Assembly (NCBI GenBank): GCA_020720405.1
Contig: DYOS01000021.1
Location: 1-37,634, forward strand
DNA: 37,634 nt
Source of the DNA: Caldithrix sp.
GTDB lineage: Bacteria > Calditrichota > Calditrichia > Calditrichales > Calditrichaceae
Reading direction: 5' to 3'
Shown here: piece by piece, positions 3,510-25,010 of the stretch
Position numbering within the stretch: the first letter of the stretch is position 1
How the letters are laid out: each line of letters begins with the position of its first letter
Position numbers and translations under genes: made by a program
Notes under the pieces: model-generated
Database searches by the model: none
The model's input: the letters and a program-made list of their open reading frames with translations, nothing else
What the model was told of the DNA's origin: nothing

Positions 3510-3963
3510 GAAGTAAGAAGGAAGAATAAATAGACAAAATGGGATGGATGATCATAGAACAAATCAGGGGTCGGTCGAAGAACCTGGGCAAAAATACACC
3601 CGTGACCTTCGGGAAAGACTATTTCGTCGGTGCTGAAAAAGATAATTTCTCAATATCCAGATGAAAAAGTCGAAGCGGTTTGTCCCACAAAAATTATAGA
3701 TATCTTTTAACCTAAAATATTCTTAAACAAGTTTTAATGGACTAAAGTCCATAAGAATCAAGGGTTTCTATAGCCCCATCCCGCACCTGCGGGACAGGGG
3801 CTATAGAGAAACCAATACTCCCGGGCTTTAGCCCAAATTTATGAATTGATCAGGCTAAAAAATCCATTCCTGAAAATGGATAAACAGACGTCTTATTAAC
3901 TAACTTAAGTATTTAATTATACAGCGATTAAATACTTTTTCAGCGGCAACTACTTCTTCTTTC
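3510..3963. other. Intergenic region between convergent genes
   Basis: No coding region with gene-like character is seen in these 454 bases. The stretch begins with short purine-rich direct repeats (AAGTAAGAAGTAAGAAGGAAG) and holds the compound palindromic element described at 3738-3834. No clear T-tracted terminator for the cyclase gene was found. Confidence 0.6.
3738..3834. repeat. REP-like compound palindrome
   Basis: Three nested or adjacent hairpins are visible. A 14-base near-palindrome TGGACTAAAGTCCA (3738-3751) opens the element and GGGCTTTAGCCC (3823-3834) closes it; the two are near copies of each other. Between them, GGTTTCTATAGCCCC (3763-3777) pairs with GGGGCTATAGAGAAACC (3796-3812, two extra bases), and its loop contains a further hairpin TCCCGC/GCGGGA. 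The layout is that of repetitive extragenic palindromes or a miniature mobile element. Copy number in the genome cannot be judged from one window. Confidence 0.6.
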
Positions 3964-19244: not shown

Positions 19245-20455
19245 TGCCGGAAAATATAAGCTATAACTGGCCGGATGCCGCCGGCCGATACGGAGAATAC
19301 GGCGGAAAATTTGTCCCCGAAACACTGATCGGCGCCCTGCAGGATCTGGAAAAACTGTACCGCGAGAAGCGCAGCGATCCGCAATTTCTGGCCGAACTGG
19401 AAAGGCTGCAAAGTGATTATAACGGACGCCCGACCCCGCTGACTTTTGCTGAGCGACTTACCAAACATTACGGTCGGGCAAAAATTTATCTCAAGCGCGA
19501 AGATTTATGCCACACCGGGGCCCATAAACTGAATAATACCCTGGGTCAGATTCTGTTGGCCAAAGCCAGCGGCAAAACCCGCATTATCGCCGAGACCGGG
19601 GCCGGACAGCATGGTGTGGCTACGGCAACGGTTTGCGCCCGTTTTGGCCTGGATTGTGTGGTTTATATGGGCACCGTGGATATTGAACGGCAGAAACTCA
19701 ATGTCTTTCGCATGCAGATGCTCGGCGCCGAAGTCCGGCCTGTGGAATCAGGGTTGAAGACTTTAAAGGATGCCACCAACGAAGCCATCCGCGACTGGGT
19801 GACCAATGTGGCGGACACCCATTATATTATCGGTTCGGTGGTCGGGCCGCATCCCTATCCGCTGATTGTCCGCGATTTTCAGTCCGTTATCGGCCGGGAA
19901 ACACGCAGTCAGGTGCTGGCCAAAGAAGGCCGTCTGCCGGATTATCTGCTGGCCTGTGTCGGTGGCGGATCGAATGCTATCGGAATGTTTTATCCCTTTA
20001 TTGAAGACCGGTCGGTGCAATTGATTGGAGTGGAAGCGGCCGGACAGGGTATTGCTTCCGGGAAACATTGCGCTACTTTAACTTTGGGCCAGGCTGGTAT
20101 TTTTCAGGGCATGAAAACCTACCTGCTGCAAACCGCCGACGGACAGATTTCTGAAGTGCATTCCATCTCTGCCGGGCTGGATTATCCCGGTGTTGGTCCC
20201 GAGCATTCCTGGCTGAAGGATTTGCAACGTGCCCGGTATGCTGCGGTTACGGATGAGGAAGCCCTGCAGGCTGTAATTCGCTTGTCACGGCTGGAGGGCA
20301 TTTTACCAGCCCTGGAAACCGCCCATGCTGTAGCCTGGCTCGAAACCCTGATGCCGCAGACCAAAGCCGGAGAAATAGTGGTTGTAAACATCAGCGGACG
20401 CGGCGACAAAGATTTGAACACCATCATCCATGAATTAGGGAAACAGCCGCAATGA
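19244..20455 (+). CDS. trpB: Tryptophan synthase beta subunit
   Basis: A 403-residue PLP enzyme that condenses indole with serine. The PLP lysine is Lys95 in HTGAHKLNN. Other marks are [10 protein letters not shown], the phosphate-binding [10 protein letters not shown], the loop [18 protein letters not shown] and the C-terminal [10 protein letters not shown]. The length and the [13 protein letters not shown] motif indicate the TrpB1 type, which pairs with TrpA. Start and stop overlap trpF (1 bp) and trpA (4 bp). Confidence 0.98.
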
Positions 20456-21240
20456 GTAAAATTGCCGCGGCCATAGCTGCCGCCAATGCTGAGAACAGAA
20501 AAGCACTCTCCGTATTTTTAACCGCCGGATTTCCACAGGTGGCTGGTTTTGTCGATCTGGCTTTGCAGGTTTATGAAGCCGGTGCCGATCTGATCGAGCT
20601 GGGCATTCCGTTCAGTGATCCGCTGGCCGACGGACCGATCATTCAGAAATCATCGCAGAGTGCCCTGGAAAATGGGGTGGACCTGAAACTTGTGCTCAGC
20701 ATAGCTGCTGAGATAAGAAGGCAGTCCGGGAAACCGTTGATTTTGATGGGTTATGCCAACCCGATTCTGCGTTTCGGCTGCACGGCTTTTATTGAAAGAG
20801 CTTCTGCCGCCGGGGTGGATGGCCTGATCATTCCCGATTTGCCGCTCGAAGAGAGCCGGAGATTCTGGGCCGAAACCGATTTAAACGGGCTGGATAATAT
20901 CCTGCTGACCACACCGGTTTCGGGCGATGAGCGCATCCGGGCTATTGATCAGGCCAGCAGCGGCTTTGTGTATTGCGTCAGTGTTACCGGCACCACTGGT
21001 GAACGCATGGATTTTGACAGACAGGTCATCGAAAACCTGCAGCGGACTTACCAATTATTGCAGAAAAACAAAATGCTGATTGGTTTTGGAATTTCTGGTC
21101 CGGCAGCGATTGAGCAGCTCAAACCCTGGTCTGACGGGTTTATTGTCGGCAGTGCCGTTGTTAAACGGCTGGGGCAGGGCAGCCGGGCAGAGATTCAGTC
21201 TGCATTGGAATTTATTCGGGAACTAAAGGCAGTGTGCTGA
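20452..21240 (+). CDS. trpA: Tryptophan synthase alpha subunit, 3' end probably replaced
   Basis: A 262-residue TIM-barrel subunit that cleaves indole-3-glycerol phosphate. Catalytic Glu49 ([10 protein letters not shown]) and Asp60 (PLADGP) are present, with [36 protein letters not shown] and [11 protein letters not shown]. It is intact and last in the operon. Its final 123 bases (21118-21240) are the beginning of an 893-bp unit that repeats downstream. Two more copies of this 3' end follow at 22011 and 22904, the last with a diverged sequence that still encodes a proper C-terminus. The present tail may therefore have arrived with the toxin-antitoxin cassette, while the copy at 22904 may be the former native tail. 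Confidence 0.97.
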
Positions 21241-21370
21241 CCATCCTAAAGGCGAGCTTTTAAAGGTTAAAATAAGTGCCTAAATTCGGCATCGGTCCGG
21301 GTTGGATTCATTTCCAATTATACTGATCTTCTGAACGCTTCTCCCTTCAGGAACCCTTTACCGCTTTACA

Positions 21371-21664
21371 TTATTTTAGTAGCCGGATGGATTTGAGAAA
21401 TGTTTTTTCATCGACCAGCTTATCGGTCGCATATTTATGTAAGATGCTCGAAATAAAAGTCTGATATGGTATTCCTTCTTCCAGTGCTTTTTGCTTGATC
21501 AATTCAATAGTCTGATTATTCAAGCGCAGAGTTATCCTGTTTTTCTCATTCGCTTTTGAAATGATATTTTTTACTCTGCGCCGGGATTTTTCTGATGCTT
21601 CAACAAATTGTTCAGCGCTGTTTTCTATCTCTTTTTCAAAAGCATCAAGTTTTATATTCTTCAT
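21371..21664 (-). CDS. CopG/RHH-type antitoxin, copy 1
   Basis: A 97-residue antitoxin of a type II pair. The central part RITLRLNNQTIELIKQKALE is a ribbon-helix-helix DNA-binding fold (strand then two helices through SSILHKYATDKL). The charged N-terminal region (about 1-40) is a helical extension that probably contacts the toxin. It would bind the palindromic operator at 21947-21968 and repress its own operon. It lies after the toxin gene, the reverse of the usual antitoxin-first order but normal for BrnT/BrnA-like pairs, and overlaps the toxin stop by 4 bp (ATGA). An identical copy is at 22264-22557. Confidence 0.85.
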   Translation of the reverse strand: MKNIKLDAFEKEIENSAEQFVEASEKSRRRVKNIISKANEKNRITLRLNNQTIELIKQKALEEGIPYQTFISSILHKYATDKLVDEKTFLKSIRLLK

Positions 21665-21924
21665 AATTTCTCACTATACATTTTGTTAAACTTCCTGCTG
21701 GGGAACGCTGTTTTTAAAAAAATACTTTCATTTTGATCAATTATAAAGGGAACAACATAGATATAACTCTTTATTCGTACGATGAAAATAAGTTGACCAT
21801 CTCTTGCCGGATTCTCAAGAATATCAAGATATTCATTCCTTAGAATTATTTCTGCAATTTCCTCGAATGAAATATCCCTTTCGGTAAGCAGTTTTTTATT
21901 TTTTTCTTCATCCCAGTAAATCAT
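21661..21924 (-). CDS. BrnT-like toxin, copy 1
   Basis: An 87-residue small toxin candidate. The opening MIYWDEEKNKKLLTERDISF matches the BrnT pattern of W-D-x-x-K-N near the start followed by I-S-F-E-E. BrnT proteins are RelE-fold ribonucleases; here the later strands (LIFIVRIKSYIYVVPFIID) and the ending TAFPSRKFNKMY fit the same plan, where the ISAR-type motif is replaced by FPSRKF. Identity as a member of a BrnT-related family is likely; mRNA cleavage is inferred. Its ATG is only 6 bases past the predicted -10 box, so the message may be leaderless. An identical copy is at 22554-22817. Confidence 0.8.
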   Translation of the reverse strand: MIYWDEEKNKKLLTERDISFEEIAEIILRNEYLDILENPARDGQLIFIVRIKSYIYVVPFIIDQNESIFLKTAFPSRKFNKMYSEKL

Positions 21925-21930
21925 GGCAAA

Positions 21931-21968
21931 ATGTTAAACTTGTAAACATACCTTGTCAACAAGGTATG
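21931..21968 (-). promoter_or_regulatory. Toxin-antitoxin promoter and palindromic operator, copy 1
   Basis: A perfect inverted repeat with 10-bp arms CATACCTTGT and ACAAGGTATG around CA lies at 21947-21968. On the minus strand it contains the -35 box TTGACA (21954-21959), followed after exactly 17 bp by TAACAT (21931-21936) as -10. The toxin ATG (21924) follows 6 bases later. The RHH antitoxin is the natural repressor for this site. On the plus strand the same palindrome offers TTGTCA, 17 bp, TAACAG, so divergent transcription is possible. Confidence 0.75.
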
Positions 21969-22010
21969 TATTTTTTAACAGGAGTTTTATATGATGCAAA
22001 CCAGGTTCTA

Positions 22011-22133
22011 CTCAAACCCTGGGCTGATGGGTTTATCATTGGCAGTGCCGTTGTTAAACGGCTGGGCCAGGGCAGCCGGGCAGAGATTCAGTCTGCATTG
22101 GAATTTATTCGGGAACTAAAGGCAGTGTGCTGA
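22011..22133 (+). pseudogene. trpA 3'-end fragment, chimeric copy
   Basis: This is a copy of the last 41 codons of trpA including the stop, without the rest of the gene. Bases 1-85 are identical to the copy at 22904, and bases 86-123 are identical to the tail of the intact trpA. It is therefore the expected junction product of a crossover between the two other copies. It is not expressed as TrpA. Confidence 0.9.
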
Positions 22134-22263
22134 CCATCCTAAAGGCGAGCTTTTAAAGGTTAAAATAAGTGCCTAAATTCGGCATCGGTCCGGGTTGGAT
22201 TCATTTCCAATTATACTGATCTTCTGAACGCTTCTCCCTTCAGGAACCCTTTACCGCTTTACA

Positions 22264-22557
22264 TTATTTTAGTAGCCGGATGGATTTGAGAAATGTTTTT
22301 TCATCGACCAGCTTATCGGTCGCATATTTATGTAAGATGCTCGAAATAAAAGTCTGATATGGTATTCCTTCTTCCAGTGCTTTTTGCTTGATCAATTCAA
22401 TAGTCTGATTATTCAAGCGCAGAGTTATCCTGTTTTTCTCATTCGCTTTTGAAATGATATTTTTTACTCTGCGCCGGGATTTTTCTGATGCTTCAACAAA
22501 TTGTTCAGCGCTGTTTTCTATCTCTTTTTCAAAAGCATCAAGTTTTATATTCTTCAT
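22264..22557 (-). CDS. CopG/RHH-type antitoxin, copy 2
   Basis: The 97-residue product is identical to that of 21371-21664, and the flanking bases also match. It carries the same ribbon-helix-helix segment and overlaps its toxin by ATGA. A duplicated toxin-antitoxin pair raises dosage of both proteins and leaves both under the same operator; the absence of any substitution suggests a recent duplication. Confidence 0.85.
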   Translation of the reverse strand: MKNIKLDAFEKEIENSAEQFVEASEKSRRRVKNIISKANEKNRITLRLNNQTIELIKQKALEEGIPYQTFISSILHKYATDKLVDEKTFLKSIRLLK

Positions 22558-22817
22558 AATTTCTCACTATACATTTTGTTAAACTTCCTGCTGGGGAACG
22601 CTGTTTTTAAAAAAATACTTTCATTTTGATCAATTATAAAGGGAACAACATAGATATAACTCTTTATTCGTACGATGAAAATAAGTTGACCATCTCTTGC
22701 CGGATTCTCAAGAATATCAAGATATTCATTCCTTAGAATTATTTCTGCAATTTCCTCGAATGAAATATCCCTTTCGGTAAGCAGTTTTTTATTTTTTTCT
22801 TCATCCCAGTAAATCAT
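22554..22817 (-). CDS. BrnT-like toxin, copy 2
   Basis: The 87-residue product is identical to that of 21661-21924, with the same W-D-E-E-K-N start and FPSRKF ending. Promoter and operator are duplicated with it. It has no frameshift or stop, so both toxins may be functional. Confidence 0.8.
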   Translation of the reverse strand: MIYWDEEKNKKLLTERDISFEEIAEIILRNEYLDILENPARDGQLIFIVRIKSYIYVVPFIIDQNESIFLKTAFPSRKFNKMYSEKL

Positions 22818-22823
22818 GGCAAA

Positions 22824-22861
22824 ATGTTAAACTTGTAAACATACCTTGTCAACAAGGTATG
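22824..22861 (-). promoter_or_regulatory. Toxin-antitoxin promoter and operator, copy 2
   Basis: Exact duplicate of the copy 1 site: the palindrome lies at 22840-22861, -35 TTGACA at 22847-22852 and -10 TAACAT at 22824-22829 on the minus strand. Confidence 0.75.
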
Positions 22862-22903
22862 TATTTTTTAACAGGAGTTTTATATGATGCAAACCAGGTT
22901 CTA

Positions 22904-23026
22904 CTCAAACCCTGGGCTGATGGGTTTATCATTGGCAGTGCCGTTGTTAAACGGCTGGGCCAGGGCAGCCGGGCAGAGATTCAGTCTGTTTTGGAATTTG
23001 TGCGCGGGTTGAAGGCCGCCTGTTAA
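22904..23026 (+). pseudogene. Diverged trpA 3'-end fragment, probably the displaced native tail
   Basis: A headless trpA tail of 41 codons including TAA. Translated in the trpA frame it gives [20 protein letters not shown], then continues to GLKAAC and a stop, the same length as the tail of intact trpA. By hand alignment it differs from that tail at about 20 of 123 bases (6 in the first 57, 14 in the last 38), with only six residue changes. Such a pattern indicates a tail that evolved in a working gene. Unrelated sequence follows immediately after the stop. Confidence 0.85.
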
Positions 23027-23117: not shown

Positions 23118-23386
23118 ATGTTGAAAAATTTGCTTATTTCCGAAGTACGGATTCGACTTTATTTATGGTTCCAGGGCAAGTGATACATATTATAGCAGAG
23201 AGCGACCTCGGTTTACTCATTATTGGTAGCATAAAGAGCAGAGAATTCTTGCCGGCTATAATTCAGGTCGGTGTGCAGTTACAGAGAGAAATTAATTTCA
23301 CGGTCATGGACAAAGATGAATATGCCTCAAGATTAATTAACTACGGTTATATCATATACAGCATTCATGGTGACACGAAAACATGA
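23118..23386 (+). pseudogene. Decayed HTH-nucleotidyltransferase (MNT-type) gene
   Basis: Two parts of one former protein lie in different frames. From ATG 23118, MLKNLLISEVRIRLYLWFQG resembles the N-terminus of HTH-nucleotidyltransferase proteins (pattern L-x-S-x-V-R-x-x-L-L-x-L-F), then stops. From about 23200 another frame reads DLGLLIIGSIKSREFLPAII and QREINFTVMDKDEYASRLIN, matching the distal part of the nucleotidyltransferase domain (D-L-L-x-I-G ... R-E-L ... R-E-I-N). The middle, including the GSxARGxxxxxSD catalytic motif, is gone. Families of this kind regulate genes or act in toxin-antitoxin-like systems. This is a deletion relic. Confidence 0.6.
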
Positions 23387-23463: not shown

Positions 23464-23870
23464 TCAAAAAAATTATCAGCTGGGCTAGGTTAAGCTTCCC
23501 TGAATATCAATAAAATCCCATCCTCAAAATGAACTGCAGGCGGCCACGAATCCTGTCTCCCGGTAAAATATAATTGGAAAAACGTAATCACCGTTGCAAA
23601 AATAAAAAAAGGCAGTCACAGGGACTGCCTTTTAGCTGTACAATAAGAATAAAAGTTTATTGATCAAACCAGGGTGTGCCAACTGGTTCGGGATAGCCTT
23701 CAAGATACACGATTTCGGCACCGGTACTCTGATGAATGGATTTTACGATGTCATTAAATACTTTTTCTGTCCAGGCTTCCGGCGATCCTGCAATAGCACT
23801 GGTCAGATTGCGTCCGATCTGTTCCACACCCCCTTCTTTCTTCTCAAAGGTCGCATAGAAATCAATGTGA
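23464..23870. repeat. Partial duplication, copy A (end of lipoprotein gene and terminator)
   Basis: Bases 23489-23865 are identical to the block 1140 bp downstream (24629-25005). A less perfect shoulder with a one-base shift reaches back to about 23464. The block covers the terminator and the last 70 or so codons of the lipoprotein gene. Confidence 0.9.
23604..23634 (-). terminator. Rho-independent terminator of the lipoprotein gene
   Basis: The hairpin GGCAGTC/GACTGCC (23611-23629, 5-base loop) is followed on the minus strand by a run of T. It sits 23 bp past the lipoprotein stop codon. The opposite strand also has a short T run, so it may act both ways. Confidence 0.85.
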
Positions 23871-24295
23871 AAGCCATCTTTGTATTCAAACAAACAGGCA
23901 GTTAATCTCAAATCCGAGCTGCCTTTTACTGACCGGGTAGCATCCGCCGACCACACTGCACCTTCACAGGTGGCAATCTTAATACTGCTTGTTCCTCCCA
24001 TTGCAGCGAGTGCAGCCATGTTAGTCCCTTCGAATGGATTTACAAGTTTGAAGCGACCAGCTGTTTCAGGTGCTTCTGAAAAAGAAGGGATTGGTGATGC
24101 TTCCCGGGCTGAATTGACATTTTGGGCTAAACCGGCACTTGCGGCTTTAATCACATCCTGACGTTTAGCATCCGTTTTGATGTCAAATATCCTGTAGTAT
24201 TCTACACTGATTTTTTTTTGGGAAAGGCCGCGGTTGGTTGAAGCACAACTGCCGAGGATAGCCAGGGCGATTATCAAAGTAAACACGATTTTCAT
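23657..24295 (-). CDS. Uncharacterised lipoprotein
   Basis: A 212-residue protein of unknown function. MKIVFTLIIALAILGSC is a lipoprotein signal with Cys17 as the lipidated residue. The mature part holds a short alpha/beta pattern: YYRIFDIKTDAKRQDVIKAA, a Ser/Ala/Pro-rich linker, then strands (IATCEGAVWSADATR, LRLTACLFEYKDGFHIDFYA) and a helix (EAWTEKVFNDIVKSIHQS). Two mature cysteines might form a disulfide. ATG 24295 is preferred over 24313 because AGGAG lies 7 bases before it. The last third of the gene is duplicated 1140 bp away at 24797-25010 without the rest. Confidence 0.75.
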   Translation of the reverse strand: MKIVFTLIIALAILGSCASTNRGLSQKKISVEYYRIFDIKTDAKRQDVIKAASAGLAQNVNSAREASPIPSFSEAPETAGRFKLVNPFEGTNMAALAAMGGTSSIKIATCEGAVWSADATRSVKGSSDLRLTACLFEYKDGFHIDFYATFEKKEGGVEQIGRNLTSAIAGSPEAWTEKVFNDIVKSIHQSTGAEIVYLEGYPEPVGTPWFDQ

Positions 24296-24480
24296 ATAAT
24301 ATCTCCTGCTCAAAATTATTGGTAATAAATCTACATTGAATAATTTAAGATAGATTTAGAACGAAATTTAGGTGTTATGAGAATTTAATATAAAACTAAT
24401 AAACCAAATCCAATTACTACAAATCATGAAAGTGATGCAGATTTATTTTAAAACTCTGAAAGCAGGTGGTAATATTAAAC

Positions 24481-24594
24481 ATGTCTAAAATCATTCTACA
24501 TGTTGATATGGATGCCTTTTTTGCCGCGGTTGAACAACGCGAGCATCCCGGATTCAAAGGCCAACCGGTTATCGTCGGCTCCGATCCCCAGTAA
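24481..24594 (+). pseudogene. dinB: DNA polymerase IV gene fragment (N-terminal 37 codons)
   Basis: From ATG 24481 the frame reads [20 protein letters not shown], then [17 protein letters not shown] and a stop. This is the unmistakable start of the Y-family polymerase palm, with the first catalytic aspartates in HVDMDAFF. A working protein has about 350-400 residues, so over 90% is missing. The break comes right before the copy B duplication begins, and no further dinB sequence was found in the following bases. The start, an AGGTGG stretch upstream and codons are undamaged, so truncation looks recent. Confidence 0.85.
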
Positions 24595-24743
24595 GGTGAC
24601 CTTCAAAAAAATTATCAGTCTGGCTTACGTTAAGCTTCCCTGAATATCAATAAAATCCCATCCTCAAAATGAACTGCAGGCGGCCACGAATCCTGTCTCC
24701 CGGTAAAATATAATTGGAAAAACGTAATCACCGTTGCAAAAAT

Positions 24744-24774
24744 AAAAAAAGGCAGTCACAGGGACTGCCTTTTA
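24744..24774 (-). terminator. Duplicated rho-independent terminator
   Basis: Exact copy of the hairpin GGCAGTC/GACTGCC with flanking A/T runs (stem 24751-24769). It follows the truncated lipoprotein copy. Confidence 0.8.
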
Positions 24775-24796
24775 GCTGTACAATAAGAATAAAAGT

Positions 24797-25010
24797 TTAT
24801 TGATCAAACCAGGGTGTGCCAACTGGTTCGGGATAGCCTTCAAGATACACGATTTCGGCACCGGTACTCTGATGAATGGATTTTACGATGTCATTAAATA
24901 CTTTTTCTGTCCAGGCTTCCGGCGATCCTGCAATAGCACTGGTCAGATTGCGTCCGATCTGTTCCACACCCCCTTCTTTCTTCTCAAAGGTCGCATAGAA
25001 ATCAAGGTGA
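24797..25010 (-). pseudogene. Truncated duplicate of the lipoprotein gene (C-terminal part)
   Basis: The minus strand encodes the last 70 or so residues of the 23657-24295 protein (from HLDFYATFEKKEGGVEQIGR to GTPWFDQ). A single substitution changes HIDFY to HLDFY. The open frame runs back to 25066 into unrelated sequence and yields a chance 89-residue product with no signal peptide, so it is treated as non-functional. Confidence 0.85.

Follow-up and report, generated by a model that had tools for sequence, protein, structure and literature searches.

Tails of trpA bracket a repeated BrnT/BrnA-like toxin-antitoxin module in Caldithrix sp., and the middle tail is a recombinant

Insertions with long target duplications have been described for restriction-modification systems, around which direct duplications of about 100 bp were found (Nobusato 2000 and Furuta 2010, as relayed in PMC3874152 and PMC3031569). 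According to these accounts, an addiction-type module that has no recombinase of its own lies between direct target duplications of about 100 bp, and relatives have the empty site. Direct duplications are likewise seen around a BrnT/BrnA-like toxin-antitoxin pair, again an addiction-type module without its own recombinase, at the 3' end of trpA in Caldithrix sp., where the direct duplication is 123 bp, and around related pairs at other genes, where it is roughly 50-150 bp; the empty site is found in relatives at the pyrC and peptidase M3 loci. Compared with the restriction-modification insertions as those accounts present them, there are also differences. The inserted pair here is a toxin-antitoxin system of type II, and the duplications are found at the 3' ends of genes, in a fixed orientation. 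The functional tail is probably foreign where this was tested, which would be tail exchange and not only duplication, and a second recombination appears to have followed at trpA. Comparable joins are known from the laboratory. When cut linear DNA enters E. coli, 56 of 60 recombinants carried a duplicated homologous end, and the duplications, 109-950 bp long in the 14 that were sequenced, were explained by circularisation and a single crossover (PMC3240628). Such circularisation and homology-facilitated illegitimate recombination (HFIR) both combine one homologous with one illegitimate join, as would the insertions here, although the former are laboratory events with selected markers whereas the latter are natural toxin-antitoxin insertions (PMC3240628). 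In Vibrio, homology-anchored displacement of type VI secretion (T6SS) effector-immunity genes was proposed for orphan immunity arrays; a conserved anchor and an illegitimate join add a toxin-immunity pair and strand the old 3' part downstream, much as we propose here, and repeated events build arrays (PMC5361080). The T6SS process replaces a secreted effector, whereas here a housekeeping gene would go on working with an exchanged tail, and what is inserted is a toxin-antitoxin pair (PMC5361080). Finally, the module resembles type II BrnT/BrnA systems in that the toxin gene comes first, overlaps the next gene by four bases and is followed by a CopG/BrnA-like antitoxin, with a palindrome at the promoter; it differs from them in that its toxin scores under the Pfam BrnT cut-off.

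The window, that is, the whole stretch of 37,634 nucleotides analysed here (contig DYOS01000021.1 of assembly GCA_020720405.1), belongs to a draft genome of 3.33 Mb in 266 contigs. It contains three copies of the last 123 bases of trpA, and features are listed in Table 1. The protein encoded by the complete trpA is 57% identical to its best match, trpA of another genome in the class, which is the closest among the relatives compared. Two units of 893 bp each carry two minus-strand genes, a BrnT/BrnA-like toxin-antitoxin pair (BrnTA), convergent to trpA. A third cassette was not found elsewhere in the 3.33-Mb draft genome.

Table 1. The trpA tails and toxin-antitoxin units in the window, and genes of other genomes with tails around BrnTA
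Feature	Position or locus	Strand	Basis or remark
Complete trpA; its functional tail is copy 1	20452..21240	+	262-aa ORF
trpA tail copy 1, in frame with trpA	21118..21240	+	base-by-base comparison
Antitoxin gene, BrnA/CopG-like, unit 1	21371..21664	-	Pfam matches
Toxin gene, BrnT-like, unit 1; 4-base overlap with antitoxin gene	21661..21924	-	Pfam match below cut-off
Promoter-like TTGACA-17-TAACAT and operator-like palindrome, unit 1	21931..21969	-	consensus match only
trpA tail copy 2, chimera; switch inside 22068-22095	22011..22133	+	base-by-base comparison
Antitoxin gene, unit 2, identical to unit 1	22264..22557	-	ORF and unit comparison
Toxin gene, unit 2, identical to unit 1	22554..22817	-	ORF and unit comparison
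Promoter-like sequence and operator-like palindrome, unit 2	22824..22862	-	
trpA tail copy 3, no gene attached; presumed native remnant	22904..23026	+	by analogy with pyrC and M3 loci
pyrC-like gene	L127; three genomes		tail duplicated around BrnTA
Peptidase M3 gene	L141		tail duplicated around BrnTA
DUF4175 gene	L030		tail duplicated around BrnTA
Response regulator gene	L239/L238		tail duplicated around BrnTA
Unnamed ORF, cut by contig end	L032		tail duplicated around BrnTA

Base-by-base comparison revealed that tail copy 2 is a hybrid of the outer two. Copies 1 and 2 differ solely at tail positions 13, 18, 27, 28, 30 and 57, and copies 2 and 3 solely at positions 86, 87, 97, 99, 102, 104-106, 108, 114, 116, 117, 120 and 122; the sites at which copies 1 and 3 differ (20 of 123) are the union of these two sets. 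Copy 2 is identical to copy 3 from position 1 to 85 and to copy 1 from position 58 to 123, and the switch lies somewhere in the 28 bases of positions 58-85. With six informative sites on one side, 14 on the other and none out of order, this pattern is beyond chance. The longest exact run common to copies 1 and 3 is also 28 bases (the next longest is 26), and a switch by homologous recombination is thus expected there. An earlier note on this DNA had described copy 2 as copy 3 over its first 85 bases and copy 1 over its last 38, with the switch within 28 bases common to all three tails, and the three-tail alignment reproduced each of these numbers. The two units are identical across 921 bp (21175-22095 and 22068-22988), so that the toxin-antitoxin genes carry no independent substitutions; such substitutions were what the earlier note had named as evidence against its reading.

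The simplest origin of copy 2 would be unequal homologous recombination between the outer tails. If copy 3 on one chromosome recombined with copy 1 on another at any point of the 28-base tract, the product would have exactly the observed arrangement. The unequal crossing-over proposed earlier holds in that the sequence of copy 2 and the position of the switch are just as expected, but it is not the only process to predict this sequence. If the cassette were excised through tails 1 and 3, the resulting circle with a hybrid tail could reintegrate beside an intact copy, and circularised fragments do integrate by a single crossover in E. coli (PMC3240628). This requires two events where one suffices, for an end product equal to that of unequal crossing-over, and we consider it unlikely. 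The amplification or loss of the module at appreciable frequency that the earlier note predicted would now depend on the 921-bp exact repeat and not on the 28-bp tract from which that repeat arose. An error of assembly has to be weighed as well, in which a single real cassette was traversed twice through the 28-base tract, creating copy 2 and the second unit. The contig comes from a draft in 266 pieces, the 921-bp repeat is longer than short reads, and the switch falls in the longest shared exact tract, at which an assembly graph would merge with any k up to 28. A k-mer of at least 31 bases across positions 57-86 separates the hybrid from both parents, however, and so an assembler with k above 30 needs real hybrid reads. 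Common assemblers finish with larger k. Tail bracketing is also present in independently assembled genomes, and an artefact is distinctly improbable. The real number of units behind this draft contig may be two or more, or one plus a circle.

The antitoxin passed the cut-offs of two Pfam families, BrnA_antitoxin (PF14384; 28.0 bits, cut-off 26.1) and CopG_antitoxin (PF12441; 31.5 bits, cut-off 28), scored far under the NCBIfam equivalog cut-off, and had no match in PADLOC. The toxin matched BrnT_toxin (PF04365) with an E value of 1.5e-6 and 28.9 bits, missing the cut-off of 34.5, and is therefore named BrnT-like only; at the limits applied, it matched nothing in NCBIfam, in PADLOC or among solved structures. 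In the operon the toxin gene (21924-21661) precedes the antitoxin gene (21664-21371). A sigma-70-like promoter lies upstream of the toxin gene, and its first hexamer is inside an 11+11 palindrome, ACATACCTTGT-CA-ACAAGGTATGT. This palindrome is likely to be the operator of an autoregulated module, as such modules would be expected to have. The insert is about 770 bp long, has a G+C content of 34% against 48% for the window, contains no ORFs of at least 60 aa other than the two toxin-antitoxin ORFs, and has no Rfam match. Searches of viral contigs yielded just three distant relatives, and plasmid matches were all below 60% identity and mostly from Piscirickettsia; thus, there is no sign of a phage or plasmid vehicle.

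The outer tails do not look like a fresh duplication, judging from how they have diverged. Copies 1 and 3 are 83.7% identical, with 12.5 synonymous and 6.5 nonsynonymous differences (dS 0.61, dN 0.076), and in both the frame is open to the stop codon, free of frameshifts and early stops. Were copy 3 drifting without function, one would expect nonsynonymous changes to be no rarer than synonymous ones, but the observed differences are mostly synonymous. Mismatches also show a step, with six in the first 85 bases and 14 in the last 38, and identity drops from 93% to 64% near position 85. These observations bear on the possibility of a plain insertion, in which a staggered break of about 120 bases at the end of trpA produced identical tails that diverged later, and unequal crossing-over then doubled the cassette. 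The duplications of about 100 bp around restriction-modification systems were described in this way (PMC3874152), and at pyrC and M3 the two copies of the duplication are near-identical in their first part. Against this, a functionless copy 3 should not show mostly synonymous differences, divergence jumps at a single point and is not even, the M3 tails end in different C-termini that each have their own relatives, and no enzyme is encoded. Copies of a long target duplication start out identical, which agrees neither with the trpA tails and their step nor with the M3 C-termini. A plain insertion is thus an improbable account. The history that had been read from this locus before, one insertion and then one duplication, is consistent with copy 2 as far as the duplication by unequal crossing-over is concerned; its single insertion is too simple, because the outer tails show coding-type divergence in two zones rather than a fresh duplication.

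Which of the two tails is foreign could be judged at pyrC and M3, where relatives without the cassette are available. Four genomes (G070, G071, G072 and G073) have pyrC without a cassette at the site, and the next gene begins a few bases after pyrC. In two carriers, G060 and G077, it is the remnant tail that keeps this close spacing (6 bases), and the cassette lies upstream of the remnant. Between the functional and remnant tails of pyrC in G060, identity is 93% in the first 54 bases and falls to 73% in the last 75. Over this last stretch the remnant is nearest to G073, G071, G069 and G068 (87-88%), in which no remnant was detected, whereas the tail nearest to the functional one is that of the other carrier, G077 (92%). 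The M3 locus lacks the cassette in G090, G085, G091, G087 and G088. Its two tails differ by one base over about the first 46. The remnant ends in KEIGAK*, resembling the cassette-free relatives (GVK*, GASK*, GATK*), and the functional tail ends in KEIGELGFLKP*, with a C-terminus and 3' flank as in a different relative, G097. The remnant resembles the tails of cassette-free relatives, and the functional tail is therefore likely to be the newcomer at both loci. The trpA tails share the step seen there, and we infer the same history for trpA: the cassette is likely to have come in together with a foreign trpA tail, and the last 38 bases of copy 1 would be foreign. The trpA DNA itself has no close homologue among 60 relatives, and comparison with relatives of at most 57% protein identity and with composition favoured neither copy as the native tail.

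Bracketing of BrnTA by host-gene tails was found at five further genes in three phyla (Table 1), which is the larger point and one beyond the earlier note. Relatives of the toxin were drawn from the phylum, from 80 genome-collection loci and from the class of one Anaerolineae genome. Strong flanking direct repeats (E<=1e-8), counting bracketing repeats of every kind including those that are not tails, were present at 9 of 82 BrnT loci and in 2 of 294 control windows taken elsewhere in the same loci (odds ratio 18, p=3e-5). With its spaced control windows, this comparison superseded an initial one (13/87 against 55/1125). A second scan checked every ORF of at least 120 aa for a displaced copy of its own tail downstream; it recovered, around BrnTA, trpA, the pyrC-like gene, peptidase M3, the response regulator and the DUF4175 gene, plus three matches elsewhere (L112, L101 and L087). 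All six BrnTA tail cases, trpA included, have the module convergent to the gene, compared with 35 of 94 over all loci, and the remnant tail is on the promoter side of the toxin gene in 6/6. The DUF4175 case shows no clear divergence step between its tails. At five other loci (L089, L070, L124, L131 and L134) the bracketing repeats were not recognised as gene tails. The flanking repeats of L027 were rejected as a gene tail; they are a dispersed repeat with another copy 4.5 kb away. L231, in which BrnTA lies between repeats of ~240 bp (about 2525-2823 and 3591-3890) with attC-like ends (GCCTAAC...GTTAGGC), was dropped as a tail case and is probably a chromosomal integron cassette. Members of the pyrC genus also have related BrnTA pairs before pyrC or after the next gene, with no comparable tail duplication (L192-L197 and L201), and this neighbourhood appears to have been hit several times by BrnTA modules.

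Other arrangements came to light in these loci. In L238 (1-2031) the order is response-regulator tail, BrnTA, second tail, PIN-toxin pair, third tail, and from this order two different toxin-antitoxin modules appear to be stacked at a single gene end. In L112 (1825-4800) a PIN-toxin pair has an intact glucokinase-like gene on one side and on the other a second, decayed copy (66-80% identical), which looks as though the module had come with a replacement of the gene. In L101 (934-2279) a pyrE-like tail is duplicated (95% in protein) around a rubrerythrin-like gene and one other gene. As this cargo holds no toxin-antitoxin pair, gene-tail duplication is not exclusive to such modules.

We favour, with a probability of about two in three, an origin in which a fragment with a foreign trpA tail and the module entered trpA, and later unequal recombination doubled the cassette. 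A BrnT/BrnA-like module would have come in on a DNA fragment that also carried the trpA tail of a related organism. On the trpA side, homologous recombination inside the tail would leave a full reading frame whose 3' end is foreign (copy 1). At the toxin end, an illegitimate join just upstream of the crossover, behind the toxin promoter, would strand the native tail (copy 3). A fragment composed of donor tail and module would account for tails that are near-identical at first and divergent towards the end, for a gene that still works and for the stranding of the native tail. Entry may have been by HFIR with a backward join, or by ligation of the fragment into a circle followed by one crossover in the tail. 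Homology-anchored entry of this kind would be expected to show 3-10 bp of microhomology where the illegitimate join was made. Classical HFIR yields deletions rather than duplications, which counts against the first route (PMC3240628). Under a pure circle model the first parts, too, should differ as donor and recipient do; that they are nearly identical fits better with an illegitimate join made backward or with conversion around the crossover. At a later time the cassette would have been doubled, and copy 2 produced, by unequal recombination of copy 1 with copy 3 at the 28-bp tract. Direct repeats should make the insert easy to lose, and addiction to the antitoxin probably eliminates cells that lose it; such removal of losers would explain why toxin-antitoxin modules are over-represented among tail-bracketed structures.

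A gene restored with a foreign 3' end would also fit an integrase-type element that replaced the 3' end of its target and has since lost its integrase, or an integron cassette. Phage 21 and e14, which integrate in icd, restore that gene by supplying a foreign 3' end. Repeats resembling attC occur in one relative, L231. As there is no recombinase gene in the 770-bp insert, no attC-like repeat in the window and no common core sequence to be seen among target genes that are unrelated, such an element is very unlikely. Returning to entry on a fragment with a donor tail, we suggest tentatively, and at less than even odds, a general form of it: toxin-antitoxin modules may be mobile units that need no recombinase and for which conserved gene tails serve as homology handles, the tail being exchanged, the gene kept working and addiction protecting against deletion.

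How chromosomal toxin-antitoxin modules arrive when they are not on a phage, plasmid or transposon is poorly understood. Gene-tail bracketing with a foreign tail suggests a concrete way in for which no recombinase is required, and since direct repeats are unstable, it would be understandable that it is addiction modules in particular that persist at such sites. The three-copy state at trpA captures the very recombination that would amplify or remove the module. The case points to an extension of insertion with long target duplication from restriction-modification to toxin-antitoxin systems, and to homology-anchored integration. If the modules are indeed such mobile units, a fragment with a gene 3' end and a toxin-antitoxin pair should insert at that gene in other strains, and different modules could stack at one gene, such as BrnTA and the PIN-toxin pair at the response-regulator tail of L238. 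In the open-access papers searched, bracketing of type II toxin-antitoxin pairs by gene tails was not reported, which is weak evidence of novelty.

The DNA that follows the trpA tails contains other structures. A second direct duplication, 377 bp and exact (23489-23865 and 24629-25005), begins 0.5 kb after the tails. It consists of the 3' part of a 218-aa gene (23657-24313, minus strand, with a lipoprotein-like start) and its downstream region, repeated upstream of the gene. Between the 377-bp repeats, at 24464-24596, lie the orphan first 37 codons of a dinB-like gene. Contig C154 of the same genome has at its end another dinB-like copy, to whose start these codons are 86% identical; the orphan piece is apparently a second bit of foreign orthologous DNA. 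Directly after tail copy 3 there is a 73-aa ORF (23165-23386) that matches PADLOC candidate defence models PDC-M05A with an E value of 2.3e-7.
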